Source: a virus
Strand: one strand, 5' to 3'
Virus record (IMG/VR): IMGVR_UViG_3300008259_000218
Coordinates: 1 to 22,526 of that record
DNA length: 22,526 nt
A model generated the notes under the pieces. That model ran no database searches, was not told where the DNA came from, and saw only the letters and a list, made by a program, of their open reading frames with translations. This document shows, one piece after another, positions 2,172 through 21,534 of the stretch. The position numbers and the translations under genes were made by a program. Every line of letters starts with the position of its first letter. Position 1 is the stretch's first letter.

Positions 2172-4892
2172 TTAGCCACCCAATTCGTCTTTAATTCTCA
2201 AGGATTCTACATTCCAAACATTCTTACGTTTACCTAATCTGCTACCAAACAAAGGTTCCCCTGGATCACCAATCCGCAATGCTTGTGATAAAGCTTGCAT
2301 AGCGGCTGTTGTTGATTTTGGAATAGGTTTTGTTGTTCCTGCTGCTTCACCACCTGGAGAAATCAAACCAAGCAATATTAAGTCTTCGTCTGTTATTGCG
2401 TCTGTACCTTCGCCTTCGCCCTCACCCTGACCTTCGCCGCCAATGCCATCGCCAGTGCCGCCTTTACCGGTGCCGCCTTCTCCAGTACCTTCCCCGCCCG
2501 TACCTTCCCCGCCAGTACCAGTTCCGGCAGCATCACCAATTCCTGCGCCTGTACCTGTTCCAGTGCCAGTGCCAGTGCCAGTGCCAGCGCCAGCGCCAGT
2601 GCCAATCTCGATAGATTCACCAGCGCCAGTACCCCCAACAGTACCCCCTACAGTGCCGCCTACAGTTCCACCAGTTGTGCCTCCAGTTATACCTGTTGTA
2701 GTGCCAGTTCCTGTAGTGTCACTAGGAACAGTACCTGCTGTACCACCTGTTGTAGTGCCACCAGTAGTAGTTCCAGTAGTAACATCACTGGGAACACTAG
2801 TGACTACGCCAGTTGGCGTACTAGGAACTGTGCCAGCAGTACCAGCGCCAGCAGTTCCCCCACCCGTAGCAGCTCCACCAGAAGTAGCGCCACTAGCGGC
2901 CCCTCCAGTGGTTGCTCCACCTGTAGTTGCTCCACCCGTAGTACCAGTTCCTATACCAGCTAAATTGATAATATCTTTTGTAATGTCTTTAACGCCAGCA
3001 GTTGATCCTCCTGAAACTGGTTGAGTAGTTGGCGTAACTGGAGTTTTAGGCCCAGTTGGAAAAATAATTGCATCAGTTTTAGGAGCTTGCGTACCACTAA
3101 CTTCAGTGAAACTAGGTCTAGTATTTTGACTTACAATTGTATCAATTGAATCTTTTTTGTATGAAAATTCATAAGTAAATTTTTTTATGTCTGGCTCATA
3201 AACAATTGTGTATCCAGTTTCTTTTCCTGTTACTGGATCTATTTTTGTTATATTTTTTTTATAACTTACAATACCATCTCTGTCTGTATATTTAATAACC
3301 TGTTCGCCAGTTTCTCCAGGTAAAGGCTGAAATTCTTTTAAAGAAGAAATGCTAGATGGTGCAGAAATATTTATAACAGCAGTTGGAAGAACACGATCAA
3401 CAGCATCTTGACCTGTTGGAGTAACTTTTATTCCTCCAACATCATAAGATTCATCAGACGCAAATCCAGCAGGTCTATTTTCAACTAATGGATCGCCTAT
3501 TTGCGTACCAGGTTTAACAGTGGTAGGCTGCCCTCCTTCAGAAATATTTCTAATTTTTTGTTCTGCATCACCACGATCACTTAAAACAAAATCAGCTACT
3601 GCACTTGCTAAAGCATCACTCTGCGACATTCCAGATTGTATATTTTTTGTATACTCTCCAGCAGCAGCAGCAATAGCTCTATCATCTGTTGCTCTTAAAA
3701 CTCCACCAGCAACAGCACCACCAGCAGCACCAGCTAATAAAGCAGTTTTTACATCTTGACCTAAGAGCGCAGCATTAACGCCTTGCGTAACAGAATTACC
3801 CAAAGTGTTTTGTATTATTGGATCTTTTAGTTTAGATAAGGCAGCAACATACTCACCAGCTTGGTAAGCTGTCATTCCAGCTACTGTTCTTTTTAATATT
3901 TCTTGAGGATCACCGCCATTAGTAATACCAGCAATAGTATTTGCTATCGCATTACCAGCAGCGGCAGATACACCTAAACTCCCGGCAAGAACATTACCCA
4001 TTGCAGGTAAAGCAATAGAACCCATAGCAAGTTCAGCAAAATCAAAAAACCGATCTATGCCACGAGGTTTATTTGCTTGAATGTTATATTCAATATCTTG
4101 TTGCGCTTGCTCTATTCCCAACTTTGTCGCATTGCTTATTACTGATTGCAATGCGCTAACATTTACATTTTCATTTTCTAATAAGTATTTAATTGTTTTT
4201 TGTAAATTATTATTATCTAAAGTATAGTCATTTGGGTTATAAGTGCTTTTGCTACCAGCGGTAACAATACGTTTAGTAATTCTGTGAACCTCATCAATCG
4301 CAAATTGTTTAGGATCAAAAAATGCTTTAGTAAGTTCCTCGTAAATTCTATTTATTTTTTTTTCTCTAATTTCATATGTGGCGCCCTTTTTTTCCAGAGC
4401 GTAATATTCTAAATCGCTATAAAGATCCTTTAAAGAAGGAATATATTTACCCATTCCTCCAACACCTACCCCATATCTATAATAAGAATTTGGAGCGCCA
4501 TTAACAAATCTATTTGCTTCTTCTATATTTGTAATTGGTTTTAAAGGCTCTTGTTTTTTAACTACCGTATTTGGCGGCGGCACAACTGATTGAGTTCCAG
4601 GAGGCGCTGCTGGGCCAGTAGCAACAGGTGTACCAGTTACTTTTTCCGCTACTCTTCCTAAAACATTAGCACCTAAACCAGAGCTAGTAACTGTAGGCGC
4701 AGCGGGAGTAACAGTAGCAGGAGGTGCGGTGGTAGTAGTTTTAGGCGCAGCGCTAGGTGTTACTGGTTCAGCTTTAATAACACCGCTTTGTATTGCGGCT
4801 AATAAATTTTTTGGCGTTCCAAAAGCTTTTGCCATTGAAAGGTCTACCGCACCTAATGGCGTAATTACTTTTTGAGATGGGCTGGTTGCCAT
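2172..4892 (-). CDS. Large virion protein with Gly/Thr low-complexity tract, probable internal protein
   Basis: The protein has 906 residues. Residues 1-120 are Pro/Thr/Ala-rich and probably disordered; 125-270 are helical and charged; 285-325 and 380-400 are hydrophobic Gly/Ala segments that could cross or perturb a membrane (GSIALPAMGNVLAGSLG, ALLAGAAGGAVAGGVL). About 500-600 is beta-like. Residues 645-830 are almost wholly Gly, Thr, Ala and later Glu. The C-terminus ALRIGDPGEPLFGSRLGKRK-NVWNVESLR is an ordered tail. The position after the tail module, the size and the hydrophobic segments resemble podovirus internal (ejection) proteins, which enter the host with the DNA. This is inference; no lysozyme domain is seen. 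Confidence 0.75.
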   Translation of the reverse strand: MATSPSQKVITPLGAVDLSMAKAFGTPKNLLAAIQSGVIKAEPVTPSAAPKTTTTAPPATVTPAAPTVTSSGLGANVLGRVAEKVTGTPVATGPAAPPGTQSVVPPPNTVVKKQEPLKPITNIEEANRFVNGAPNSYYRYGVGVGGMGKYIPSLKDLYSDLEYYALEKKGATYEIREKKINRIYEELTKAFFDPKQFAIDEVHRITKRIVTAGSKSTYNPNDYTLDNNNLQKTIKYLLENENVNVSALQSVISNATKLGIEQAQQDIEYNIQANKPRGIDRFFDFAELAMGSIALPAMGNVLAGSLGVSAAAGNAIANTIAGITNGGDPQEILKRTVAGMTAYQAGEYVAALSKLKDPIIQNTLGNSVTQGVNAALLGQDVKTALLAGAAGGAVAGGVLRATDDRAIAAAAGEYTKNIQSGMSQSDALASAVADFVLSDRGDAEQKIRNISEGGQPTTVKPGTQIGDPLVENRPAGFASDESYDVGGIKVTPTGQDAVDRVLPTAVINISAPSSISSLKEFQPLPGETGEQVIKYTDRDGIVSYKKNITKIDPVTGKETGYTIVYEPDIKKFTYEFSYKKDSIDTIVSQNTRPSFTEVSGTQAPKTDAIIFPTGPKTPVTPTTQPVSGGSTAGVKDITKDIINLAGIGTGTTGGATTGGATTGGAASGATSGGAATGGGTAGAGTAGTVPSTPTGVVTSVPSDVTTGTTTGGTTTGGTAGTVPSDTTGTGTTTGITGGTTGGTVGGTVGGTVGGTGAGESIEIGTGAGAGTGTGTGTGTGTGAGIGDAAGTGTGGEGTGGEGTGEGGTGKGGTGDGIGGEGQGEGEGEGTDAITDEDLILLGLISPGGEAAGTTKPIPKSTTAAMQALSQALRIGDPGEPLFGSRLGKRKNVWNVESLRIKDELGG
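2400..2960. repeat. Low-complexity repetitive DNA coding for a Gly/Thr tract
   Basis: This stretch codes for residues 645-830 of the 906-residue protein. The clearest unit is a hexamer CAGTGC/CAGCGC repeated seven times at 2561-2602, and a GGTV unit repeats near 2630-2670. Slippage here would add or remove codons in steps of two without breaking the frame. The opposite strand is open as Pro-Val repeats, which is a by-product of the composition. Confidence 0.8.
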
Positions 4893-5239: not shown

Positions 5240-5460
5240 GACTTATCAGCCTTGCCATCTAATTTATCAAATATCTGTTTCAGAATTTGCTTAATATCGT
5301 TAATGTCCTGACGGTAATCATCTTTAGCAACATACTCTTTAGGCAATTCACCCATCTTATCTTCTAGCTTCTGCACTTTGCGTGTCATACCATTCCAAGC
5401 ATACGCTGCTAGGAATCCAGCTATAGCTACAACAATATTAAATATCTGTTGATTGTCCAT
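5236..5460 (-). CDS. Small membrane protein with coiled coil, holin-like topology
   Basis: The protein has 74 residues. One membrane segment lies at about residues 5-22 (QIFNIVVAIAGFLAAYAW), followed by an amphipathic coiled coil (KVQKLEDKMGELPKEYVAKD, DINDIKQILKQIFDKLDGKA). This layout is that of XhlA-like holin or membrane-associated phage proteins, but reversed in order compared with XhlA, whose membrane segment is C-terminal. Its role could be lysis, host-membrane attachment or a virion component. The stop overlaps the next ATG as ATGA. Confidence 0.75.
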   Translation of the reverse strand: MDNQQIFNIVVAIAGFLAAYAWNGMTRKVQKLEDKMGELPKEYVAKDDYRQDINDIKQILKQIFDKLDGKADKS

Positions 5461-5472
5461 TTACACACCGTA

Positions 5473-5793
5473 TCAAATGCCATCGCCAGGCGTTACATAT
5501 ACAACAGCAGTGCCAGATGAAGTAACGCCAGTAAAATAAGCATTAGGTAAAAATGTTAAAACTTGTTGTGTATTAGCCAGTATAGGAATACTGGTTGCAA
5601 CATTGCCAGCATTTGTAGATGCAGACGCGCTAGTATTAGCCGCACCTATAAATACAGATACATTGCCAGCGTTAATAATTCGATATTGATTGCCGCCAAG
5701 CGTGTCAGAAGATGCCTGAACCGGAGTCGGGGCAGATGTATTTGCAGTAAAAGTTACTGTATTCCCTAGTTTTGTAAATGCTTGAACGCCCAT
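5473..5793 (-). CDS. Small beta-rich virion protein
   Basis: The protein has 106 residues with a strong AAGGAG before the ATG. The sequence GVQAFTKLGNTVTFTANTSA, then GNQYRIINAGNVSVFIGAAN and VTSSGTAVVYVTPGDG, shows alternating strands and many Thr/Ser/Ala, like a minor capsid or fibre-accessory fold. The efficient ribosome site suggests high copy number. No family is recognised. It closes the fibre module; the next gene is a membrane-type protein. Confidence 0.72.
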   Translation of the reverse strand: MGVQAFTKLGNTVTFTANTSAPTPVQASSDTLGGNQYRIINAGNVSVFIGAANTSASASTNAGNVATSIPILANTQQVLTFLPNAYFTGVTSSGTAVVYVTPGDGI

Positions 5794-5802
5794 ATTATCT
5801 CC

Positions 5803-6612
5803 TTACCAACTCCAAATAAATACTGCGCCATCACCGCCCCGACCACCTGCGCCGCCAGAAGACGTTCCAAATCCCCCGCCGCCTCCACCACAGCCAATAC
5901 CGCCATTTCCACCTGCGCCCCCGTTTCCTCCAGCAACGGAACCACCACCACCACCACTACCGCCCGCACCAACCATTATTGGTTGCGTAATAAAAAATCC
6001 ATTTCTCCCTGCGTTAGCAGCAGCAGCAATACCACCTGCTATTGTTGGGTATCCATAGTTGCAGGAAACAGAACCTCCGCTTCCGGTATTAGTACCCGAA
6101 CCTCCACTGCCACCAGATAAAAATGTAGTATTTGATGCTGCTAATGCATTGCCTGAAGCTGTTCCTGCGTGACCAGCTATAGATTTGAATATTCCAGCAG
6201 CGCCAAAAAAATTATTGCTGCTTGCAGAACCTCCACTGGTGGTTCCGCTGCCCCCTTGAGCATTTAATAATAGGTATCCAGTTCCGTCTTTTGCTTGATA
6301 AATAATTCTTGTTGGCCCTCCAGCACTGCCGGAAATTGCACTACCACCAGCGCTACCACCAGCTCCCCCAGCGCCAACAGATACACGCAACACATCTGGT
6401 ACAAAAATAGCCGGGCCAATCCATTGTGTCACTGCGCCAGAACCACTACCTTCTGTATTAATGCCGTTGCCGCCACCACCACCCGCCCCGATCAGCAGCA
6501 TCCTGACCATGCTTGCGCCTCTGGGCTTGACCCAATCGCGCACAGTTTCGCCACCGTAGAACTCTTGGTAGTTCGCGCCTTGTGGGGTAGGAAATCCAAA
6601 TACGTCTAGCAT
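5803..6612 (-). CDS. Glycine-rich adhesin-like protein, copy 3
   Basis: The protein has 269 residues, the longest of the three paralogues. It starts with LDVFGFPTPQGANYQEFYGG, DWVKPRGASMVRMLLIGAGG, followed by SGAVTQW, GTGYLLLNAQGG, FKSIAGHAG and TFLSGG. The C-terminal 70 residues are mostly Gly in runs (GGSGGGGGSVAGGNGGAGGN) and end GGDGAVFIWSW. Such runs fit polyglycine type II helices. It differs from copies 1 and 2 mainly by extra glycine tracts. The plus-strand frames opposite it are shadows of its GC-rich codons. Confidence 0.8.
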   Translation of the reverse strand: MLDVFGFPTPQGANYQEFYGGETVRDWVKPRGASMVRMLLIGAGGGGGNGINTEGSGSGAVTQWIGPAIFVPDVLRVSVGAGGAGGSAGGSAISGSAGGPTRIIYQAKDGTGYLLLNAQGGSGTTSGGSASSNNFFGAAGIFKSIAGHAGTASGNALAASNTTFLSGGSGGSGTNTGSGGSVSCNYGYPTIAGGIAAAANAGRNGFFITQPIMVGAGGSGGGGGSVAGGNGGAGGNGGIGCGGGGGGFGTSSGGAGGRGGDGAVFIWSW

Positions 6613-6616
6613 TGCG

Positions 6617-7276
6617 TCACCATGTGATTATTACTACGAGGCCGTCACCGCCGGGGCCAACCGCCGATACGCCACCACCACACCCAATACCTCCTCTTCC
6701 AGTGTTGCTTCCACCAACACCAACTATTATTGGTTGTAACTGAAAAAATCCAGAAGCATTACCTATGTTTGTTGAATAACCATAATTACTGGTGACAACT
6801 CCACCTGACGCTGCACCGCCACTTAAAAATGTTGTTCCAGACGCAGAAACGGCACCCGTAGTTCCATTTTGTCCTGCAATTGATTGATAAAACCCCATTG
6901 CAGTAAAAGCATTTGCGGCTGTTGCGGCTCCAGCAGTTGCTCCTGTGCCTCCTTCAGCGGATAGTAGCAAATAGCCAGTTCCATCTTTTTGCTGGTACAA
7001 CACAGAGGTTGTAGTTGGATTTCTACTACCAACTCTAATCGACAGTTCGTCTGGGATTAAAAAAGCAGGACACATAAAGTTAGTAACAGCACCAGAACCA
7101 CCACCCGTAGTAGCACCATCTCCATTTGCACCAGAACCAATCAAAGTAAACCAAACAAAAGACGCCCCTTGTGGCTTAACCCAAGTTACACCATTGTTTG
7201 CGCCAGACCTATTAGGCGCATTAAATATCTGCACATTCGCGCCCTGCGGTGTCGGGTAATTTATTGGATAGCTCAT
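6617..7276 (-). CDS. Glycine-rich adhesin-like protein, copy 2
   Basis: The protein has 219 residues from ATG 7276; the frame is open to a TTG at 7291, but the ATG sits one base after the preceding stop and its YPTPQGANVQIF then aligns with the other two copies. Shared blocks are TWVKPQGASFVWFTLIGSG, SGAVTNF, GTGYLLLSAEGG, YQSIAGQNG, TFLSGG and GRGGIGCGGG, ending in VIITW. Between blocks the sequence differs strongly from its paralogues, as expected for surface loops under selection. It is a probable fibre-tip or receptor-contact protein. Confidence 0.8.
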   Translation of the reverse strand: MSYPINYPTPQGANVQIFNAPNRSGANNGVTWVKPQGASFVWFTLIGSGANGDGATTGGGSGAVTNFMCPAFLIPDELSIRVGSRNPTTTSVLYQQKDGTGYLLLSAEGGTGATAGAATAANAFTAMGFYQSIAGQNGTTGAVSASGTTFLSGGAASGGVVTSNYGYSTNIGNASGFFQLQPIIVGVGGSNTGRGGIGCGGGVSAVGPGGDGLVVIITW

Positions 7277-7277
7277 G

Positions 7278-7913
7278 TTACCAACTCGCAATCAAAGCCA
7301 TGCCGGGGCCACCAACGCCAGAAGCAGAACCTCCACCGCAACCTATACCGCCCCTGCCTGAACTACTTCCACCCATACCTACAATAATTGGTTGCAGCAT
7401 AAAAAATCCATTTGCATCGTTTCCAATTCCATAACCGTAATTTGCTGTTTTAGAAGTAAAGCCACCGCCAGCAGTTAAAAAAGTGGTTGAGGATGGACTT
7501 GATGCGCTTCCATTTTGCCCAGCAATAGATTGGAAAAATCCAGATGCTGCAAATTGATTTGCTGTAAATGCAGTACCAGCAGTTGAGCCAGACCCACAAA
7601 ATCCTTGCAGCAAAGTAACAAGTCCACCTGATCCACGATATTGTATTCGCGTGTCATTTGATTGAGTTACAGCAACATACAAAATATCTGGTACGTTAAT
7701 AGCCGACCCATACCAAACTGTTACAGCACCAGAACCACCGCCAGAAGTGCCATTACCCGTTCCACCAGCGCCAATAAGCAACATATAAACATTGCTAATC
7801 CCTCTTGGTTTAACCCAAGTTTGGGTAGTTATGGTTGCTGACCCAGCGTTGTTGGCGTAAAACGTCTGAATATTGCAACCTTGCGGAGTCGGCAGATTAA
7901 ACAGGTCAAGCAT
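7278..7913 (-). CDS. Glycine-rich adhesin-like protein, copy 1
   Basis: The protein has 211 residues. It begins LFNLPTPQGCNIQTFY, then WVKPRGISNVYMLLIGAGG, and ends with PIIVGMGGSSSGRGGIGCGG and a terminal Trp. This plan (short beta N-domain, glycine-rich body, GRGGIGCGGG, hydrophobic strand, C-terminal W) is shared with the next two genes. Glycine-rich proteins of this type occur at phage fibre tips; in T4-like phages gp38 adhesins use polyglycine helices to hold receptor-binding loops. That function is inferred here from composition. It is coupled to the upstream gene by TAATG and is the least glycine-rich of the three. Confidence 0.8.
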   Translation of the reverse strand: MLDLFNLPTPQGCNIQTFYANNAGSATITTQTWVKPRGISNVYMLLIGAGGTGNGTSGGGSGAVTVWYGSAINVPDILYVAVTQSNDTRIQYRGSGGLVTLLQGFCGSGSTAGTAFTANQFAASGFFQSIAGQNGSASSPSSTTFLTAGGGFTSKTANYGYGIGNDANGFFMLQPIIVGMGGSSSGRGGIGCGGGSASGVGGPGMALIASW

Positions 7914-8098
7914 TACTCAGCCCAAGATGGTTTTGCAGCGTTGTCATCAACACAGGTGTACTCGACAGCTTCTTCGCCAACGGGTGTGCCATCAGCGCGA
8001 TAGACACCAATGTAGCTACCATCAGCGTCAAGATGTGCGTAGCCCTCTGACCCGTCAGAAAACTCAAGCAAGAACCAGCTATCAGTCTCGCGCCACAT
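7913..8098 (-). CDS. Small acidic hypothetical protein
   Basis: The protein has 61 residues. The start ATG 8098 shares its A with the preceding stop and has GGAG seven bases upstream; a longer frame would begin at TTG 8119 and is not preferred. It is acidic, with beta-like WFLLEFSDGSEGYAHLDADG and a C-terminal EYTCVDDNAAKPSWAE. There are no hydrophobic segments and no known domain. It lies between the fibre-associated protein and three glycine-rich genes and is again coupled (TAATG) to the first of them. Confidence 0.72.
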   Translation of the reverse strand: MWRETDSWFLLEFSDGSEGYAHLDADGSYIGVYRADGTPVGEEAVEYTCVDDNAAKPSWAE

Positions 8099-8538
8099 TA
8101 GTAGTCTCCAGCTACGCAAACAACCGAATAACCTGTACCAGCCGAACCTGTAGACGTACCAAACGTCACATACAGCAAGTAGTTTGCATTCAGCGCAAAG
8201 TTGATAGGTAGCTCAAACACAGACGATGCGGCAGTCTGAGATAGCGTCACGGCAGGAAGCGTAATCTCGTCATAGAGCCAAGTGTTCGTTGCGTTTGTCG
8301 TTGTGCTGCTAGACACAAAAATACGGCAAACAGTCGCTGCTGGAGAGCCAACAGGACGGAAACGAACCTTCTGCACATACGAGCCGTTAGCACCTGCGGT
8401 AAACAGCTTGTAAATATTTGCGCCAGTACCATCAAGCGCAGTGTTTGCGCTTGGGCCGACAATAAGACCAGAGTTATTACTGGCTACTGATTGCAGATCA
8501 CCGGCAATCGAATAAATAGGGGATGTATTTGCTGGCAT
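8098..8538 (-). CDS. Small virion protein downstream of the fibre
   Basis: The protein has 146 residues with GAGG before the ATG. It appears all-beta: SPIYSIAGDLQSVASNNSGL, then YVQKVRFRPVGSPAATVCRI, FELPINFALNANYLLYVTFG. This looks like a jelly-roll or similar virion surface fold, but no family is recognised. The stop shares one base with the next ATG (TAATG), so the next gene is coupled. A fibre-associated or decoration role is likely from location. Confidence 0.72.
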   Translation of the reverse strand: MPANTSPIYSIAGDLQSVASNNSGLIVGPSANTALDGTGANIYKLFTAGANGSYVQKVRFRPVGSPAATVCRIFVSSSTTTNATNTWLYDEITLPAVTLSQTAASSVFELPINFALNANYLLYVTFGTSTGSAGTGYSVVCVAGDY

Positions 8539-8548
8539 TTTTTACCTC

Positions 8549-9871
8549 TTACGGAAGAATGCAGTTAATAGAAATAGCTCTTACAAGGCCAATGGATGTC
8601 GTGCTGCCACCACCAGTTGCTGCCAGTGTTCCAGCAGTAAATGACAGTCCAGTACCAACCGTTACGTTTGAAAATCCACCTGATCCGTTACCGTACAAAA
8701 TGGATGTGCCGGATGTTGCAGGGGCATAATCAGTTCCAGCCGCAGCATTGGAAAAGCCTCCAGAGCCATTACCTTTTAGTATTGACGTACCCGAAGTTGC
8801 TGGGGCGTAATCTGTGCCAGATGAAGCTGCGCTAATGGCAGTTCCATTTCCTTTTAAAAGTCCTGTAACTGATGTGGATAACGTAATAGCAGCATTGGTT
8901 GTAGAGTTTGCAACCGTTCCAGCAAAACCATTTGCAGTAATAATAGAAACATTGCTTACAGTTCCCCCACCACCGCCACCACCACCTGTAGCAGAAAGCG
9001 TACCGCCAACAAATGTTAGGTTGGTTCCAATAGTGACATTACTAAAACCACCAGCGCCATCCCCATACAAGATAGAATTACCAGATGTAGCTGGCGCATA
9101 ATCAGTTCCAGAACTAGCCGCAGAAATAGCTGTTCCATTACCCTTCAACAAACCAGTTACCGTTGTTGACAGAGTAATTGCCGCATTTGTCGTTGAATTT
9201 GCTACTGTTCCAGCCAGGCCATTAGCAGATACCACAGTAACATTGCTAACAGTGCCACCGCTACCTGTTGCAGATAATGTGCCTCCAGCAAAAGAAACAC
9301 CGCTACCTATTGTGACGCTACTAAAACCGCCAGAACCATTGCCATAAAGAATAGATGCGCCACTGGTAGCAGGTGCATAGTCTGTGCCAGCAGATGCGTT
9401 ACTAAACCCGCCTGATCCGCTACCTTTTAATATGGAAGTTCCGCTTGTCGCTGGAGCATAGTCAACACCAGATGTTGCTGTAGCAATAGAACCTGTACCA
9501 TTACCTTTGAGTAAAGCACCAGAAGAAATTGTGACTAGACCAGTACCACCTTGAGGAACAGTAATCGTTGATGAAAGACTTGAAATAGTTGCATTGGTTA
9601 ATGTCAAATTACCAATAGTGGTAATAGTGCCACCCAAAGATACCGATGTGTTTCCAATGGTTACTGCACTATTTGCAAGATAATTATTCGGAAATGTAGA
9701 TGCTACGCTGCTAATTGTGACATTAGCCAACGACATATTATTGAGCGTTGTAACCGTATTACCAAGCTGGATAGCAGTGTTTCCAATAGTAATTGGCGTA
9801 GCAAAATTATTATCTAAACTAGATAACGCAATTGTTCCTGTTGCATTTGCAAAAGTATTTGGCACAGGCAT
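8549..9871 (-). CDS. Repeat-built tail fibre-like protein
   Basis: The protein has 440 residues with GAGG seven bases before the ATG. After an N-terminal region of TIGNTAIQLGNTVTTLNN-type strands, it is built from repeats: DYAPATSG occurs five times, usually followed by SILKGNGSGGFSN, and a longer unit with GTVANSTTNAAITLST and GLLKGNGTAISAASSG occurs twice. Such Gly/Ser/Thr beta repeats are typical of trimeric fibres or spikes. The C-terminus is short (IGLVRAISINCILP), with no large receptor-binding head and no chaperone domain. It may therefore be a fibre shaft that works with the following small proteins. Confidence 0.78.
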   Translation of the reverse strand: MPVPNTFANATGTIALSSLDNNFATPITIGNTAIQLGNTVTTLNNMSLANVTISSVASTFPNNYLANSAVTIGNTSVSLGGTITTIGNLTLTNATISSLSSTITVPQGGTGLVTISSGALLKGNGTGSIATATSGVDYAPATSGTSILKGSGSGGFSNASAGTDYAPATSGASILYGNGSGGFSSVTIGSGVSFAGGTLSATGSGGTVSNVTVVSANGLAGTVANSTTNAAITLSTTVTGLLKGNGTAISAASSGTDYAPATSGNSILYGDGAGGFSNVTIGTNLTFVGGTLSATGGGGGGGGTVSNVSIITANGFAGTVANSTTNAAITLSTSVTGLLKGNGTAISAASSGTDYAPATSGTSILKGNGSGGFSNAAAGTDYAPATSGTSILYGNGSGGFSNVTVGTGLSFTAGTLAATGGGSTTSIGLVRAISINCILP

Positions 9872-9872
9872 T

Positions 9873-11849
9873 TTAGAACCTCGTCCTTAATTCATGTTCA
9901 AACTGGAAGCCATTTATAACAATTGGCGTTGAGTTGCTATTAACTGTTATGCCTAAATATTTGCCCCACATTTCAGCATCAGATTTATATAAATAGTATC
10001 CAGAGCCAGGTGATGTTCCGCTAGTCCAGCCAATAATTTTCCCTAAATTATTAGTCCAATTAACTTCTTGCAAAGCATTATTTAGCCAAATAATTGTGTT
10101 AAAGAAAGTAATTTCAGGAGACTGCGCTGATTCAGAGTCTACATAAGCACTCATCTCTGTAGGCACTGAGCCTAGCGTTGCTTCAATACCAATTTTCAAT
10201 GCTTGCTTATCGCGGATAGGATCACCCATCGCATCTAAAGCAGTTTCAAGAATAATATCTACTGGAGTTTCATTATCGCTATATAACTTCAGCAGGTTCG
10301 TTCCATTTGTTCCAAACATCAGCAATCTACCGCCTGTTGAAATAGGCGCAACCAGCTTGACTTCCGTTTGGTTAGAAAAAAACCATTTCTTTTCAAAAAA
10401 TACCGCCTGTATATAACGATAAGTTCCACTATCGTTATAGCGAATATTAAATACAGCACAAAGAATGTTATTTAACAAAACCTGACCGCCAACAATGGTG
10501 GCAGTCGTAAAGTCTATGTCTGGAAATATGCCATCTAAAGCATCAGATATTTTTGATGTGGTAGAACCAACCAACGCATACACACCATATTCGTTCATAA
10601 ACAATACTGAACGGAAATAAGGGAAAATTGCGTAACTAAGTCGAGTACCAACAGAAGCAGAGATGTTGGTATTTGTAAAAATAGTAACGCCAGTATCCGT
10701 TACACGGACATCTGAAAAAACGTTGATACTATCTTCACCAAAAATGTACAAAAAGTTATTTGCTGACAGCAACTGGACAATATTGCTACGCAATGTATTG
10801 TCAGTCAGAGTAAGTGAGCCAGCAGAAACACTTGTAAAGTCATTGTAAGTGCCAGCAGCGCTATATGAAACAGTTCTTCCTTGTGAAACCCAGGTTCTAC
10901 CGCTAAATGTCTGGATTCCTGTAACTGGATCGGCGTTAATAATGGCTTTTGCAGTAGCATTACTTCCCCCGCCACCCGTAATCGTCACCGTAATATTGGA
11001 AGAATTGCTGTAATTGCTACCAGCATCTGTCATGATGACATTGACTACCTGACCACCCGACAAAATTGCCTGTCCTGTTGCCCCTGTTCCACCACCACCA
11101 GAAATTGTTACGACTGTATTCGATACATTGCTGTAACCAGTGCCACCATTTGTCACCAAAACAGAAACTGTGCCTGTGGCGAACGTCACAAGACTGCATA
11201 CAGCATTGGCATTAGTGCCGCCGCCGCCAGTAATCGTAATTGTAGGAGGCGACGTATAACCTGTGCCACCCTCAGTTAATATAATGGAACTTACCGTGTT
11301 GCCAGTGATAACTGCTTCCGCTTCAGCCTGTACACCGCCTGTTTGGTTAGGCGCAGAAATAATGACCGCTGGCTGGCTGGTATAACCACTACCCCTATTA
11401 ACAATTCCTATTGATCCGACTGCTCCGATAGCAACAAGATTAGTGCCATCCCATGAAAAAATGCCTTTGTTCCTATCCCCAATAAGAACGCGCTCACTTT
11501 TCCACTGGGTAATATTGACACCAGAGTTTGAAAAGGTGCTGGTAACAGCAACGTTTCCTTTTACATTCGCCTCAACGTCAACATACTCGCAACGACCATC
11601 TTCCTGAAATCCCAATATGTAATCTTTATTGTTAATGTTTGAAGACAACAATGTTGTTGTCACATTAGCAAATGAGATGCTCGTATTGGATTGGCCTGGA
11701 AGAGTCTTGATATTTGCATAGCCGATGGGCATAGCATTCTCAAGCCACGAAAACTCACCATCTTCAAGCGCAGTACGGTTAGCTTTCGTGTTTACGCCAC
11801 GAAATTGTTTGATGACACGGTACGACTTTTTCTGTTCAGCCGCTGCCAT
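9873..11849 (-). CDS. Large tail protein with internal glycine-rich repeats, possible nozzle
   Basis: The protein has 658 residues; the ATG follows the adaptor stop by two bases without a clear ribosome site, so coupling is likely. The N-terminus IKQFRGVNTKANRTALEDGE followed by FSWLENAMP and the later RTWVSQGRTVSYSAAGTYND with FIFGE-like strands (NNFLYIFGEDSINVFSD) suggest a beta-propeller-like tail tube or nozzle protein as found after the adaptor in short-tailed phages. Residues about 146-306 consist of roughly four copies of a unit with GxGYxSxPxVxITGGGGxxAxA, absent from the rest of the protein and looking like an inserted surface domain. The C-terminus ends FEHELRTRF. The nozzle role is inferred from order. 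Confidence 0.75.
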   Translation of the reverse strand: MAAAEQKKSYRVIKQFRGVNTKANRTALEDGEFSWLENAMPIGYANIKTLPGQSNTSISFANVTTTLLSSNINNKDYILGFQEDGRCEYVDVEANVKGNVAVTSTFSNSGVNITQWKSERVLIGDRNKGIFSWDGTNLVAIGAVGSIGIVNRGSGYTSQPAVIISAPNQTGGVQAEAEAVITGNTVSSIILTEGGTGYTSPPTITITGGGGTNANAVCSLVTFATGTVSVLVTNGGTGYSNVSNTVVTISGGGGTGATGQAILSGGQVVNVIMTDAGSNYSNSSNITVTITGGGGSNATAKAIINADPVTGIQTFSGRTWVSQGRTVSYSAAGTYNDFTSVSAGSLTLTDNTLRSNIVQLLSANNFLYIFGEDSINVFSDVRVTDTGVTIFTNTNISASVGTRLSYAIFPYFRSVLFMNEYGVYALVGSTTSKISDALDGIFPDIDFTTATIVGGQVLLNNILCAVFNIRYNDSGTYRYIQAVFFEKKWFFSNQTEVKLVAPISTGGRLLMFGTNGTNLLKLYSDNETPVDIILETALDAMGDPIRDKQALKIGIEATLGSVPTEMSAYVDSESAQSPEITFFNTIIWLNNALQEVNWTNNLGKIIGWTSGTSPGSGYYLYKSDAEMWGKYLGITVNSNSTPIVINGFQFEHELRTRF

Positions 11850-13802: not shown

Positions 13803-14804
13803 TTACAAAGTCAAAGAGTTGTAGCCCGTCACCTTCGTCATCGACTTAGGTTTCGTGTTGACTAGTTCTGCAATCATCAGAACAGCGCCCACATAACCAA
13901 TCTGCCAGTTAGGTAGAGTCGATTCAAAGCCCGTGAAGACAAACGAACCCTGCTCATGGATGTAGAGCGAGAGATAGTTGGTATTCAGGAAGTACACAGT
14001 ACCTTCTGGGCAATATGGATCAGGATAAATAGGAACACCAGCAACCATCAGTGCGCGGAAAGCAGCTTGTGCGCCGTTGGCATCACTGTCAAAGCCGGAG
14101 CCAGGAGTGATGACGTATTGCTCTTGACCAACATAGTCTTGAGCCAACAGAGTCCAAGTACCGAAACCGCAAACGCCGAATGATGGAACTTCAGCGCCAT
14201 TCTTCACTGTGCCAGAAATGTATTGCAGGATGTTTTGACGGGTCGGATTAACCGAACCGGCTGCATACTGCTTGGATTTCCACCAAGTATAGGTTGAACG
14301 GTCAATATTGCCGTAAGTGCCAGAATCGGCAACAGCGGCTGGCAGACCGATAAACTGCTGATTATTGCTTGTGTTGTTGTACAGCGAGGTTGCCATCGCA
14401 TCCATCATCACGTTGGTCGCATCATTCATACGAGCTTCGATCAGAGGGATAACGGCTGCATCCTGCTGGACTGCACCTTCCATACCCAGGAAGGGTACTG
14501 GAGCAATCATCAGTTTCAGGTTGAACTCAGCGTTATAAGCGCCTTGCTGGACAGACGGTTGAGCGAACGAGCCGCTGTAGTCTGACCATTGAGCGTTCAC
14601 AAACTGCGAACCCTGAACAGGAACGGTTACAGAGGAAACACCGCCAGAGGCTTGCTGACTGTTAGCAATCAGTGCCGCCATCAACGGGGTCGAGTTATAA
14701 AGTTGTACGACCAGTTTCGGGATAAATGCCCTACGGGTAACGTAGGTCAACTCAGTAAACTGAGTGGAACCCGAAGCCGGAAGAATGCCGCCACCAATAG
14801 GCAT
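13803..14804 (-). CDS. Major capsid protein (probable HK97 fold)
   Basis: The protein has 333 residues; ATG 14804 has GGAGA upstream. It should form the capsid shell. The N-terminal region STQFTELTYVTRRAFIPKLV, then NSTPLMAALI and PVQGSQFVNAQWSDYSG, resembles the start of HK97-like capsid proteins of podoviruses; the middle holds a long helical spine segment (IEARMNDATNVMMDAMATSL), and the C-terminal half has GVPIYPDPYCPEGTVYFLNT, typical of the late beta-rich A-domain. There is no obvious propeptide. It follows the scaffold gene directly, as is usual, with a 35-base gap carrying its own ribosome site. Confidence 0.88.
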   Translation of the reverse strand: MPIGGGILPASGSTQFTELTYVTRRAFIPKLVVQLYNSTPLMAALIANSQQASGGVSSVTVPVQGSQFVNAQWSDYSGSFAQPSVQQGAYNAEFNLKLMIAPVPFLGMEGAVQQDAAVIPLIEARMNDATNVMMDAMATSLYNNTSNNQQFIGLPAAVADSGTYGNIDRSTYTWWKSKQYAAGSVNPTRQNILQYISGTVKNGAEVPSFGVCGFGTWTLLAQDYVGQEQYVITPGSGFDSDANGAQAAFRALMVAGVPIYPDPYCPEGTVYFLNTNYLSLYIHEQGSFVFTGFESTLPNWQIGYVGAVLMIAELVNTKPKSMTKVTGYNSLTL

Positions 14805-14839
14805 AATCTATCTCCGATCTAAAAATATCCCCTATTCGC

Positions 14840-15370
14840 TCACAATCCTATTGGTTTTGGATTGCGGCGCAATTCATTCAATGCAGCAGCGGCTTCATTT
14901 CTAGCACCCTGAACTGGGTTCTTCCAGAACTGGTCAAGGTTGAACCCCTTGATTGCAGATGGATTGTATCCAGTAGGTGTTGGTGTCGCCGCCTGTTTCA
15001 TATACGACCAATACTCAGCCGCTACTTCATGGTTAGTAATGCCTTTATCAAGCATGACTCTTTCCACTTGTTCGATATCCTCATCACTTTCGATAAGACC
15101 TTTAGCCTTGAGCTTTGAGCGTCGGCGATTCAGTTCTTCAACCGCATCCTTTTCCCGCATCTGATTACGCAACGACTCAAGTTCGTTTTGCATCTTTGCG
15201 GTAGCTGCATTAGTTGCGTCCTCGATTTCCAACTCTGGAATCGGCATATCCGGTTTGGCTTTCTTCGTCAAACGCAGAAAGTCTTTACGAGTATTTGGAT
15301 TCTCAGCAAGTTGACGAGCTAGTGCAGCAAGTTCATCACGCGCTTCAGTGCTTAGATCTTCAAGTGACAT
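14840..15370 (-). CDS. Putative capsid scaffolding protein
   Basis: The protein has 176 residues. ATG 15370 follows an AGGGG site. The composition is almost wholly helical and charged: DLSTEARDELAALARQLAEN near the start, a coiled-coil stretch around AKMQNELESLRNQMREKDAV, and a more open, basic C-terminus (FWKNPVQGARNEAAAA and LRRNPKPIGL). A helical coiled-coil protein of this size directly upstream of the major capsid gene is the classical signature of a scaffold that shapes the procapsid and then leaves. No protease motif is evident. The assignment rests on composition and position. Confidence 0.8.
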   Translation of the reverse strand: MSLEDLSTEARDELAALARQLAENPNTRKDFLRLTKKAKPDMPIPELEIEDATNAATAKMQNELESLRNQMREKDAVEELNRRRSKLKAKGLIESDEDIEQVERVMLDKGITNHEVAAEYWSYMKQAATPTPTGYNPSAIKGFNLDQFWKNPVQGARNEAAAALNELRRNPKPIGL

Positions 15371-15392
15371 GGTTATCCCCTATTCTAAAAAC

Positions 15393-15417
15393 AAAAAAAC
15401 GCATCTTAAATGATGCG
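15393..15417 (-). terminator. Intrinsic terminator before the scaffold gene
   Basis: On the minus strand CGCATC, a 6-base loop and GATGCG form a perfect 6-base-pair stem (15400-15417), followed directly by seven T (15393-15399) and, after one G, five more T. This is a standard factor-independent terminator. It overlaps the end of the preceding gene, with the TAA in the loop. Only 22 bases separate the T-tract from the next ATG, too few for a downstream promoter. Confidence 0.8.
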
Positions 15418-15588
15418 CTTGCCGCCTGGTTTCTCAACCATCATTTTGTTCTTAGCACCAGCTTTAGCTGCTGAGTTAAGACCACCCATAGTTGCGAAAC
15501 GAGGTGTGTTAATGATTTGTCCGTTCTGCTGATTGTTGTCAGTAGGATTACGGGGTGCGGCTGCTCCGCGAGGTTTAAAAAGTTCCAT
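15406..15588 (-). CDS. Small basic hypothetical protein
   Basis: The protein has 60 residues, starting at ATG 15588 with AAGGA seven bases upstream. It is rich in Asn, Gly, Ala and Lys (NPTDNNQQNGQIIN, AAKAGAKNKMMVEKPGGKR) and is probably flexible. Its stop codon lies in the loop of the intrinsic terminator, so the gene ends exactly where transcription may stop. The function is unknown; a small nucleic-acid-binding or capsid-associated peptide would fit the charge. Confidence 0.72.
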   Translation of the reverse strand: MELFKPRGAAAPRNPTDNNQQNGQIINTPRFATMGGLNSAAKAGAKNKMMVEKPGGKRII

Positions 15589-15606
15589 CTTAGATTCCTT
15601 AAAAAA

Positions 15607-16071
15607 TTACATCATGCCAGGAACCGCTGGCGCGGTTGCCATCGCCTTGCCCTCTGGCGATTGACCACCAGCTTGCGGAAGCGATTGTAACATTTGCAAA
15701 ATTTCAGATTGTTTAAGTTCCTCTGAGCTATCCTTGCGCTTGCCTACTACGGACATCAGCGCCTTCATTGCCGCTACAACCATCTTTCCTTCTTTGGAAT
15801 TGGCTCCAATGCCAGGCAACGAACGTTTAATCAGATCGACAGCCAAACTTATATCAACCATTGCGCCTTCTTTTGAACCCATTGCAGGTTCAGGCGTAGA
15901 CATGGGGGCAGACATAGGCGGCGTTTCGGCACCACTCATGCCCTCTTCTTCGCCTTCACCTTCCTCTTCGTCTTCGGATTCCTCACCATCAGTCTTTACC
16001 TCAACTTCGACCTTTGGTTTCTTCTGCTGAGTTTCCATCAGCTTCATAAGTTCTTCAGAAGGAACGCCCAT
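15607..16071 (-). CDS. Acidic hypothetical protein, probable assembly factor
   Basis: The protein has 154 residues. I chose ATG 16071 because GAGG lies five bases upstream; a longer frame would begin with TTG at 16095 without such a site. After a helical start (VPSEELMKLMETQQ) there is a Glu/Asp tract (GEESEDEEEGEGEEEG), a Met/Pro/Ala-rich linker, then a helical domain around ISLAVDLIKRSLPGIGANSK and SEILQMLQSLPQA. The acidic, low-complexity composition next to the portal and scaffold suggests an assembly or chaperone-like virion protein. No known family is recognised. Confidence 0.75.
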   Translation of the reverse strand: MGVPSEELMKLMETQQKKPKVEVEVKTDGEESEDEEEGEGEEEGMSGAETPPMSAPMSTPEPAMGSKEGAMVDISLAVDLIKRSLPGIGANSKEGKMVVAAMKALMSVVGKRKDSSEELKQSEILQMLQSLPQAGGQSPEGKAMATAPAVPGMM

Positions 16072-16097
16072 ATCAACCTCAATAAAAATTTGCAATA

Positions 16098-18940: not shown

Positions 18941-19679
18941 GTGGCACCCGCTGAGTTTCCTCTTCTGTTAGCAGCCAATCCATTGTATTTTCGCCGGTTA
19001 GCCGCCGAAACCGGCTGTGATGCCCAAAAATAGACTGAAAATTGATATTGCCATGAGTAATTGGGCATAAATGCTCAAAAGAGAACAATTTTGACTCTTC
19101 ATCTGGCGCAAACCGCATTCCAACCGCCTCCAGATAGGGTCGTAAGAAGCAACAAATCTGCACATCCTCATTATTGAGTACATCAACGTCAAATCTTGTA
19201 CAAGTAATGCCATAACGGGTCGGGGCTTCCAAAAAGCGCTTACTTCTCAGGCTAAATCCACCGTTTTGCACAATTTTCAAATTGGGTTTGCCCACATACA
19301 TATACCCTGTCATGAATTCATTGTTTTCTGTCAGGGCGGCATGGGTCAAGCCACCAATAAAGTCGTACTGAAACCATTCATCGCGCCAATTATCAGCATT
19401 TAATGCCCACCCATCATGCTGAACAATCAATGCGTACTCTGTTTCTATAAAAGCATGAAGTTGATATATAACAAAATTGCTTTATCCCTGATACGTCATA
19501 GGCGAAGCCAAGAGCTTTTGCGGAATATTGGTATCTAAGGTTTCGTTGGTAATGAGCAGGGGCTGCGATCCTGGCAGTGCTTGGCAGGTTTTACGAATTG
19601 CATGAACGGCATCCAATCCTTTGCCATTGCCATAAATGGCGACTACCGTAATATTTTTAAATTTGTTATTGGTTTCCAT
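18870..19679 (-). pseudogene. DUF5672 family glycosyltransferase-like gene interrupted by one in-frame stop
   Basis: A continuous frame from ATG 19679 to TGA 18870 would encode about 269 residues, but a TAA stands at 19482-19484. Before it, KNITVVAIYGNGKGLDA is the usual opening of DUF5672 proteins. After it, without any frame change, come SNFVIYQLHAFIETEYALIV and then QHDGWALNADNWRDEW, YDFIGG, NGGFSLRSKRFL and GMRFAPDEES, all hallmark blocks of that family. The stop sits where relatives, as I recall them, have the Tyr of a YSxF motif, so a single TAY to TAA change explains it. The family resembles nucleotide-sugar transferases (QHDG in place of a DxD motif); the activity here is inferred. 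It could decorate a virion or host surface sugar. It lies between terminase and portal as a cargo-like insertion. A sequencing error is a real alternative. Confidence 0.82.
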
Positions 19680-20550
19680 AAATTCCAATTCGTTTTAAGT
19701 AGTCGGCAACATTGCGGCCTACGGCAATTTGTTCTGGTGTGCTGTCATCCTGAACTCTGCTGACATGGCGGGTGATCTTTTGGGCGATGAGTCTAGGCTG
19801 TACTTGCTCTGCGTAGGCTGCGGTTGCCAATGCTGCTGCCATGACGCGATCATCTTTGTTTCTGCCGGACGCATGGATTGCTGCATTCTCACGAATAATT
19901 GTTTTCATCTCGTCAATCAGATCAACGGAAAAAACATCCATCATGCCGCGCTCAAAATAATCCTTCATGTAAGAGAGCATTCGTTCTTTGCTGGAAGAGG
20001 TTGTCAACCAGCCAATCGAATTAGACAAGCCACCTAATGTGTCGTTACGTCGCCAGATGTAGTTGCTCATACTGCCAAGCACGTTCATGAGGTCATGCCC
20101 CATTGCGCCGCCAATAGCGGAGGCTTGGCGTTTCAAGTTTCTGAGTTCGTTGATGACAGCTTGACCAGGGCCGTTGACTTCAAGGTTGAGGGTGGAGTTT
20201 TTATAAGCGCCAGCAAGGTGGGCGATGACCCAAGCAAACTGGTAGGTGTTCATCTCAGATGTAGCAAACTCTGCCACTTGTTCCATACCGTCAGCATAGC
20301 AACGAAAAACTTGTATACAGAAGCGGTCAGCCCAATCAGAACTGCCATGAGCAGGATCAGCACCAATAACATAATAAGCCGTATCAATGGGTTCCTCCCA
20401 AATCTTCAGGGTTGACAGCCTTTCTGTTGACTTCAGCACTTCCGTATCCTGGAAGTTAGCACCCATCGTATAGCGGTAGTGGTCGCAGCTTATCTTCTTA
20501 GCATTCTTCATTGCGTCCGTACAACGGGCGTTAGAGAAGAAGCTCTTCAA
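19666..20550 (-). CDS. terL: Terminase large subunit, C-terminal nuclease part (gene split)
   Basis: This open frame continues the terminase in the +1 frame relative to the ATPase part; recognisable protein starts at about SFFSNARCTDAMK. It carries the RNase H-fold nuclease that cuts concatemeric DNA. Acidic signatures are present: IGADPAHGSSDWADR (first catalytic Asp), LNLEVNGPG (probable second acidic position) and GRNKDDRVMA (C-terminal Asp pair). No convincing Shine-Dalgarno site or start codon exists; the coordinate given is a TTG and ATG at 20511 is another candidate, so it is unlikely to be a free-standing gene. The sequence GAAGCT-8 bases-AGCTTC (20539-20558) forms a short hairpin exactly at the join. 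The 3' end overlaps the next gene by 14 bases. Confidence 0.85.
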   Translation of the reverse strand: MKSFFSNARCTDAMKNAKKISCDHYRYTMGANFQDTEVLKSTERLSTLKIWEEPIDTAYYVIGADPAHGSSDWADRFCIQVFRCYADGMEQVAEFATSEMNTYQFAWVIAHLAGAYKNSTLNLEVNGPGQAVINELRNLKRQASAIGGAMGHDLMNVLGSMSNYIWRRNDTLGGLSNSIGWLTTSSSKERMLSYMKDYFERGMMDVFSVDLIDEMKTIIRENAAIHASGRNKDDRVMAAALATAAYAEQVQPRLIAQKITRHVSRVQDDSTPEQIAVGRNVADYLKRIGIYGNQ

Positions 20551-21355
20551 ACAGCTTCCAGCGCCACCAGGCCATTTGTCTGCTGTTGATCTCAAAGTTG
20601 TAGAGTTTCTTAATATCTCTTGTCCACTCTTTCTCTTCAGAAGTCAGTTTGCCATCCCAATACACTTTATAAATTTGGGAGTCGCCAGGCACAGAGTAAA
20701 ACTGGTTACGCCACCAGCCGCAAAAGATAGCGCGTTGTGTACGGGCTTTTCTGGCAGTGACGTACATATCGTGAAACATATTAAAACCACGGGCAGTGGA
20801 TTCAAATATGTAGAGTCGTTTGTCGTTGGTTTCAGCCAGAGAGGCCAGCAGGGAGGCTAGACCTTCTTCGTCACCCCATGACGAGGTTTCAGTTCCGTGA
20901 AGGAACGTGATGCCCTTCCCACGACCCAGACTTCCTTTTGCTCGCAGCCCAGCGACCTGATAAAAGATTCGACTGCGATTCTTGAGTGCAAGCGAATTAC
21001 GATTGTGGGAGAGTATGGGTATTTTGTACTCTTTCGGTAGACCGTCCATATAGGCTGTGAGAGTGCCTTTGAACATATCTCTGTTTTCTTCTGTGTCTGT
21101 GACGAGGGTTCCGTTGAGTCCATTATTGATGTAATGCCAGTAAAGGTCTAAAGCCAGTGAGATAGTGGTAATACCAAGTTGCCGCCCTTTCAAGATAACA
21201 AAGAAGTGAACGCCTTCAGCCAACCCCGTAGCTATCTCATCCATGACATAGGTTTGCGTACCTAGCAGGTTGTCCATCTTCCGCAAGCCCTGCTCTTTTG
21301 TCTCAATCTTTAACTGTGTGCAGAACTTGTAAAACTGATTCAAATTAAATTTCAT
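20531..21355 (-). CDS. terL: Terminase large subunit, N-terminal ATPase part (gene split)
   Basis: This part has 274 residues. The start is ATG at 21355, preceded by AAGGA and overlapping the upstream stop as ATGA. The large terminase powers DNA packaging at the portal. The Walker A-like motif is KGRQLGITT near residue 65, typical of phage terminases, followed by a Walker B/coupling region around ITFLHGTETSSWGDEE, then ESTARGFN, which resembles the ATPase motif III region. The reading frame reaches RQMAWWRWKLFEE and then hits a TAA three codons later. In this family that Trp-rich helix is normally followed by a linker of the QEYP-x-TE-x-AF type before the nuclease domain. No such linker is seen here; the nuclease domain follows at once in another frame. 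I read this as a deletion combined with a frame change, either natural or an assembly fault. Confidence 0.88.
   Translation of the reverse strand: MKFNLNQFYKFCTQLKIETKEQGLRKMDNLLGTQTYVMDEIATGLAEGVHFFVILKGRQLGITTISLALDLYWHYINNGLNGTLVTDTEENRDMFKGTLTAYMDGLPKEYKIPILSHNRNSLALKNRSRIFYQVAGLRAKGSLGRGKGITFLHGTETSSWGDEEGLASLLASLAETNDKRLYIFESTARGFNMFHDMYVTARKARTQRAIFCGWWRNQFYSVPGDSQIYKVYWDGKLTSEEKEWTRDIKKLYNFEINSRQMAWWRWKLFEELLL
21015..21102 (-). repeat. Partner arm of the 88-base inverted repeat, inside the terminase gene
   Basis: This is the in-gene partner of 22439-22526, identical over 87 of 88 positions when inverted. It encodes the part of the terminase ATPase domain that follows the Walker A region. 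Reading continues normally on both sides here, so this is the original copy and the window-end copy is the derived one. Confidence 0.95.
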
Positions 21356-21534
21356 AGTTTCCTTGTACGCAAGATGCGGCACTTCTCTCTATCTTCCGGC
21401 GAGAAGTCAGGGCTAATCTCTGCCACCGTACAGGGCAAGGCAGGTTTGGCAGTTATTGCATTTATCATCCAAAAGACAGAGAAGGCCGCAATAGCGGCGT
21501 AGTACAGAATGGCAAGATAAGAGGCGTATTTCAT
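21352..21534 (-). CDS. Small membrane-anchored phage protein
   Basis: The protein has 60 residues. One hydrophobic segment covers about residues 4-28 (YLAILYYAAIAAFSVFW), and the rest is a short polar tail with two Cys and the block EISPDFSPEDREKCR. This architecture fits either an inner-membrane peptide with an outward tail or a secreted small protein. No lipobox is evident. The start overlaps the stop of the upstream gene as ATGA and its own stop overlaps the terminase start as ATGA, so expression is coupled on both sides. Lysis-related roles (holin or spanin-like) are conceivable from topology alone but unproven. Confidence 0.78.
   Translation of the reverse strand: MKYASYLAILYYAAIAAFSVFWMINAITAKPALPCTVAEISPDFSPEDREKCRILRTRKL

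Follow-up and report, generated by a model that had tools for sequence, protein, structure and literature searches.

Gene content of the locus

The window, by which we mean the whole stretch of DNA analysed, is a virus record of 22.5 kb whose genes include those for portal, major head and terminase. Three tandem genes on its minus strand, designated hereafter A (7278–7913), B (6617–7276) and C (5803–6612), encode proteins of 211, 219 and 269 amino acids with the C-termini LIASW, VIITW and FIWSW, respectively. The start of B was taken to be the ATG at 7276, which has a TTG upstream of it at 7291. The blocks PTPQG, WVKPxG, LIGxG, SGAVT, SIAG, TFL and GGIGCGGG and a C-terminal Trp are common to all three. 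Pairwise identities were 41–52% (BLASTP, single comparisons with composition adjustment; E 8e-27 to 2e-28), a similarity far above chance even allowing for the glycine-rich composition. The description of this region in an earlier note as three tandem paralogues with these blocks was thus confirmed, on the minus strand, and the variable segments and length differences that it reported proved to be real across the relatives of the three proteins. The strand, two further module genes and a fibre motif, all described here, are additions to that note. The gathering cut-off of the Pfam family PF21722, Gly_rich_2 (24.3 bits), was passed by C (32.6 bits, E 1.1e-7), with A (9.9 bits) and B (12.6 bits) of the window below it; 84 of 96 relatives of B and C matched the family at E<=0.01. 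Nothing was found in sequence searches of the PDB.

The genes A, B and C close a tightly coupled five-gene module, in which they are preceded by u146 (8098–8538, minus; 146 amino acids) and then u68 (7913–8098, minus; counted as 61 amino acids, the name deriving from a longer TTG ORF). The ATG of u68 overlaps the stop codon of u146 (TAATG), and the following junctions are TAATG (u68/A), TAACATG (A/B) and TGACGCAATG (B/C), implying coupled synthesis. The u146 protein is highly conserved (mean column identity 87%, 39 sequences); the corresponding value was 37–48% in three alignments of the tip proteins (A2–A4), of which A2 and A3 mix classes and A4, at 48%, contains B alone. Adjoining the tip genes, u146 is presumed to encode an adaptor or collar placed between the fibre and the tips, and u68 possibly an assembly factor; no named family was found for either.

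Before u146 lies a tail fibre gene (8549–9871, minus; 440 amino acids) made up of repeated units. Its product presumably carries the tips and ends in the presumed docking motif GLVRAISINCILP (8552–8590, minus). The general form of this motif, GLVRAIxINCIL[P/C], is near-universal and is found on otherwise unrelated fibre bodies, those before u146 being collagen-like or of several repeat types. Wherever the contig of a strong u146 locus reached far enough upstream, the preceding ORF ended in this motif or a near variant (79 scored by the strict pattern, the remainder by eye); the fibre C-terminus differed at distant u146 homologues.

Several other genes of the window, all on the minus strand, were also noted. 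A 658-amino acid protein with internal glycine-rich repeats (9873–11849) matched many tail fibre and baseplate PHROGs. Directly after C, a 106-amino acid gene with a good ribosome-binding site (GGAG; 5473–5793) was present in 5 of 77 non-redundant module loci, only in the phage background of the window. A 906-amino acid protein (2172–4892), which contains an extended low-complexity tract of Gly and Thr, occurred in only 3 of the 77 and was without a PHROGs match. The terminase large subunit (19666–21382) consists of two overlapping ORFs (20531–21382 and 19666–20595) and is annotated as one gene in the related phage MW202753; the split may stem from a frameshift or an intron, or from an error in sequencing.

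Conservation of the triad and distribution of the module

Relatives were identified in 68 viral loci, and further loci were obtained with B and u146 as seeds. Roughly 60 viral contigs, from several distinct backgrounds, carry the module. The order A-B-C was fixed in 57 complete and 3 end-truncated loci. Phylogenetic analysis resolved A (51 rows), B (50 rows) and C (47 rows) as three clades, each split from the rest by a branch with SH-aLRT support of 97–100, and the C-termini in complete loci followed the classes: IASW in A, I[TS]W or VTW in B and W[SAT]W in C. Divergent loci classed by HMM score as C-B-C or A-C-C were counted as triads because their C-terminal ends are still of the A, B and C types. 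In a scan seeded with u146, made without selection for tip copy number, each strong locus that was complete proved to have three tip genes (71 complete triples, 56 of them distinct, since some contigs are included as two overlapping loci). A single tip gene was found only at the distant u146-like loci L066 and L067; the distant locus L069 has three.

Among the 77 non-redundant loci, u146 was present in 73, u68 in 68 and the major capsid protein of the window in 6. Capsid families also varied by background (phrog_9953 in the window, phrog_1328 in L060), and the few shared capsids together with these differing families indicate that the module moves between phages. By shared non-module genes the 60 complete loci fell into 13 groups, some of which may be short-contig artefacts. 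Unrelated phages are known to exchange entire host-recognition modules, as among Alteromonas phages (PMC10579305). The nearest annotated phage (L072, MW202753.1) carries a fibre annotated as 'chaperone of endosialidase' at the expected place of the module (14477–16081), which suggests alternative host-recognition modules on one backbone. Neither B nor u146 had a relative in genome_contigs, and a prophage was not seen there either. In the literature searched, which consisted mostly of freely available papers, neither the triad nor the fibre motif was described.

Variation and exchange of single genes

In near-isogenic contigs, with flanks 92–98% identical, A and B dropped to 50–75% identity and C to 68–91%. 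For L040 and L056 the flanks were 98 and 98% identical at the nucleotide level, and A, B and C 58, 54 and 68%; for L123 and L166 the flanks were 98 and 97% and the tips 71, 70 and 79%; for L058 and L059 the flanks were 92 and 99% and the tips 58, 54 and 91%. The tips did not diverge in a few flank-similar pairs (L028 and L141). Single genes also move on their own between backgrounds: A of L015 and A of L038 were 96% identical although the backgrounds, and B and C, differed. Tree distances of A and B showed a correlation near zero, a value equally compatible with independence and with reassortment; those of B and C were weakly correlated. The sharp differences in A, B and C between near-isogenic contigs bear out the earlier suggestion of a receptor-contact type of protein, with a conserved frame and fast-changing parts.

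Variable segments largely coincided with loops and insertion points; the contrast between loops and strands was modest, as large in 10 of 268 circular shifts for C and in 41 of 210 for A, and the loops of A were not clearly more variable than its strands.

Candidate sources of variation were also considered. A diversity-generating retroelement (DGR) was rejected as the source, no RVT_1 reverse transcriptase being found in 16 records of 12–80 kb, many of them fragments. Switching by inversion was likewise rejected, since positions 5400–9000 are without strong inverted repeats and contain only short imperfect pairs. Contig ends, whose clustering in the cassette would be a sign of population variation, were not enriched there (22 of 89 vs 18 of 67).

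Predicted fold and comparison with known systems

AlphaFold2 single-chain models of C (pLDDT 94.0, pTM 0.90) and A (pLDDT 91.8, pTM 0.88) showed a framework of strands and, between them, long glycine-rich segments assigned to neither helix nor strand, as would be expected of polyglycine-II packing. Fold matches in the PDB were the tail tip of mycobacteriophage Bxb1 (E 6.5e-7), the fibre of cyanophage Pam3 (E 3e-5) and ALK/LTK. Foldseek probabilities for Pam3 (7ypx) were 1.00 (C) and 0.98 (A), and TM values of 0.31–0.47 to the phage matches denote moderate similarity. Many glycine-rich phage proteins made up the viral fold matches. The match of these confident models to glycine-rich phage tail-tip and fibre folds also supports the receptor-contact role suggested in the earlier note.

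The distal head of Pam3 gp24 (PDB 7ypx, 7yfw) shares the combination of TNF-like and glycine-rich parts with the A and C models and, like the A/B/C family, has a conserved stem and a variable tip (PMC9608196). It is a trimer whose hypervariable tip is the proposed host binder (PMC9608196), and for a gp24 relative from a Klebsiella phage, infection of a host with altered LPS was regained through changes in the glycine-rich domain (PMC12671077). Unlike the present genes, which are three shaftless paralogues after a separate fibre gene, gp24 is a single gene with an N-terminal helical shaft and forms a homotrimer; a Pam3-type alpha-helical shaft, which docks to the baseplate, was not found in the A and C models, which begin with a short low-confidence stretch followed by strands and have no N-terminal helix.

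For A and C alike, the Bxb1 tail tip (9d93, chains Qa/Qb) ranked first among the PDB fold matches, although Bxb1 differs from the window module in phage type and attachment. We know of no three-gene set of this kind there. Bxb1 gp33 and parts of gp29 have been described as PPII bundles (PMC13243192). The glycine-rich domain of ALK/LTK belongs to an animal receptor and resembles A and C by predicted fold only.

The likeness to gp38 adhesins raised in the earlier note was not upheld. The T-even gp38 proteins (T2, S16, PP01) are also separate tip proteins after a fibre gene, but each is one gene with a beta-helix domain, whereas the window has three genes. The gp38 family models gave no Pfam match at E<=1 (only Gly_rich_2 was matched) and no PHROGs match, and S16 gp38 (6F45) did not appear among the 50 PDB fold matches listed for A or among the 50 listed for C. 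Homology to gp38 was rejected on these grounds, the TNF-like and glycine-rich Pam3 fibre being the closer structural type.

The cultured Rhodobacter phages RcOceanus, RcBaka and RcMeacham share with the window the order fibre, u146 homologue (identity about 45%, across 64% of its length) and Gly_rich_2 gene, but have one glycine-rich gene where the window has three, no u68 annotated between and another fibre C-terminus; a one-gene form of the arrangement thus exists. In RcOceanus (L126, MW677520.1, 4594–7238) a DUF2793 fibre, the u146 homologue and the single Gly_rich_2 gene are all annotated as hypothetical.

Proposed function of the module

Very probably A, B and C form the receptor-binding tip of the fibre in one form or another. 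The analysis shows the module, the triad, its hypervariability, the independent exchange of its members and the predicted fold; virion location, docking and receptor binding are inferred. Each protein would consist of a TNF-like beta-sandwich, the constant frame, with variable loops and glycine-rich polyglycine-II segments projecting from it, and the three would dock via u146 onto the conserved C-terminal motif of the fibre. As an A:B:C heterotrimer, each subunit would offer its own variable surface, and recombination would swap A, B or C bodies independently and the whole module between phages. We give about even weight to this complete proposal, of which the heterotrimer, with prospects slightly short of even, is the least certain element. 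It appears the most likely arrangement because the solved relative of the fold is a trimer and exactly one A, B and C are kept. Three-chain heads of comparable logic are found in complement C1q. That an obligate A:B:C head arose by triplication of a Rhodobacter-like one-gene tip, with its three surfaces reassorted combinatorially and the module plugged into unrelated fibres through the common docking peptide, is a plausible but more speculative extension.

Besides the fixed triad and the trimeric relative, the heterotrimer is supported by the single motif and single u146, by the coupled translation, by class-specific strand residues and by covariation of A41 and B218 across several backgrounds. 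At thresholds of 75–80%, all 7 class-determining residues lay in core strands, which hold 24% of residues (p 4e-5); at a looser threshold of 60% the enrichment weakened, to 9 of 20. At C position 267, for instance, the residue is Ala, Ile/Val or Trp in A, B and C, respectively. Such residues could equally specify three different homotrimers. Covariation between A and B showed a general excess (152 pairs above z 4 vs about 7 expected) that may reflect shared deep ancestry, and the free reassortment of A and B counts against a heterotrimer.

Three separate homo-oligomeric tips (A3, B3, C3), at different sites or stacked and each recognising a different receptor or part of one, would accommodate the independent exchange and the separate clades as independent units, as well as the homotrimeric state of Pam3 gp24 (PMC9608196). 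Against this stand the single fibre motif and single u146 of each module, the class-specific core-strand residues and a copy number held rigidly at three, where occasional losses or doublings would be expected of independent tips; we consider it possible, though rather unlikely. It is improbable that receptor contact is limited to one or two of the three proteins and that the others, diverged for assembly, are structural or chaperone-like: C is longer than A and B and usually more conserved in near-isogenic pairs, and dedicated chaperones occur beside related fibres (PMC9608196), but all three proteins vary in near-isogenic contigs and one fold is predicted for A and C. The earlier note had offered hetero-oligomers or a choice of receptors, and its first option fares better, since three classes kept together argue against a loose choice of spare tips; alternative tips used one per virion, which tandem paralogues with divergent surfaces might suggest, are very improbable given the coupled junctions, the retention of all classes in order, the lack, within 5400–9000, of strong inverted repeats on either side of a switchable segment and that of a reverse transcriptase in the 16 records.

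To our knowledge, phage receptor-binding tips of this fold are each encoded by one gene. A conserved trio whose members are exchanged independently, if true, would amount to host recognition of a combinatorial kind, and the transfer of tips between unrelated fibres and phages would be accounted for by the common C-terminal motif. The module also offers a signature by which the receptor-binding genes of uncultured viruses can be located.
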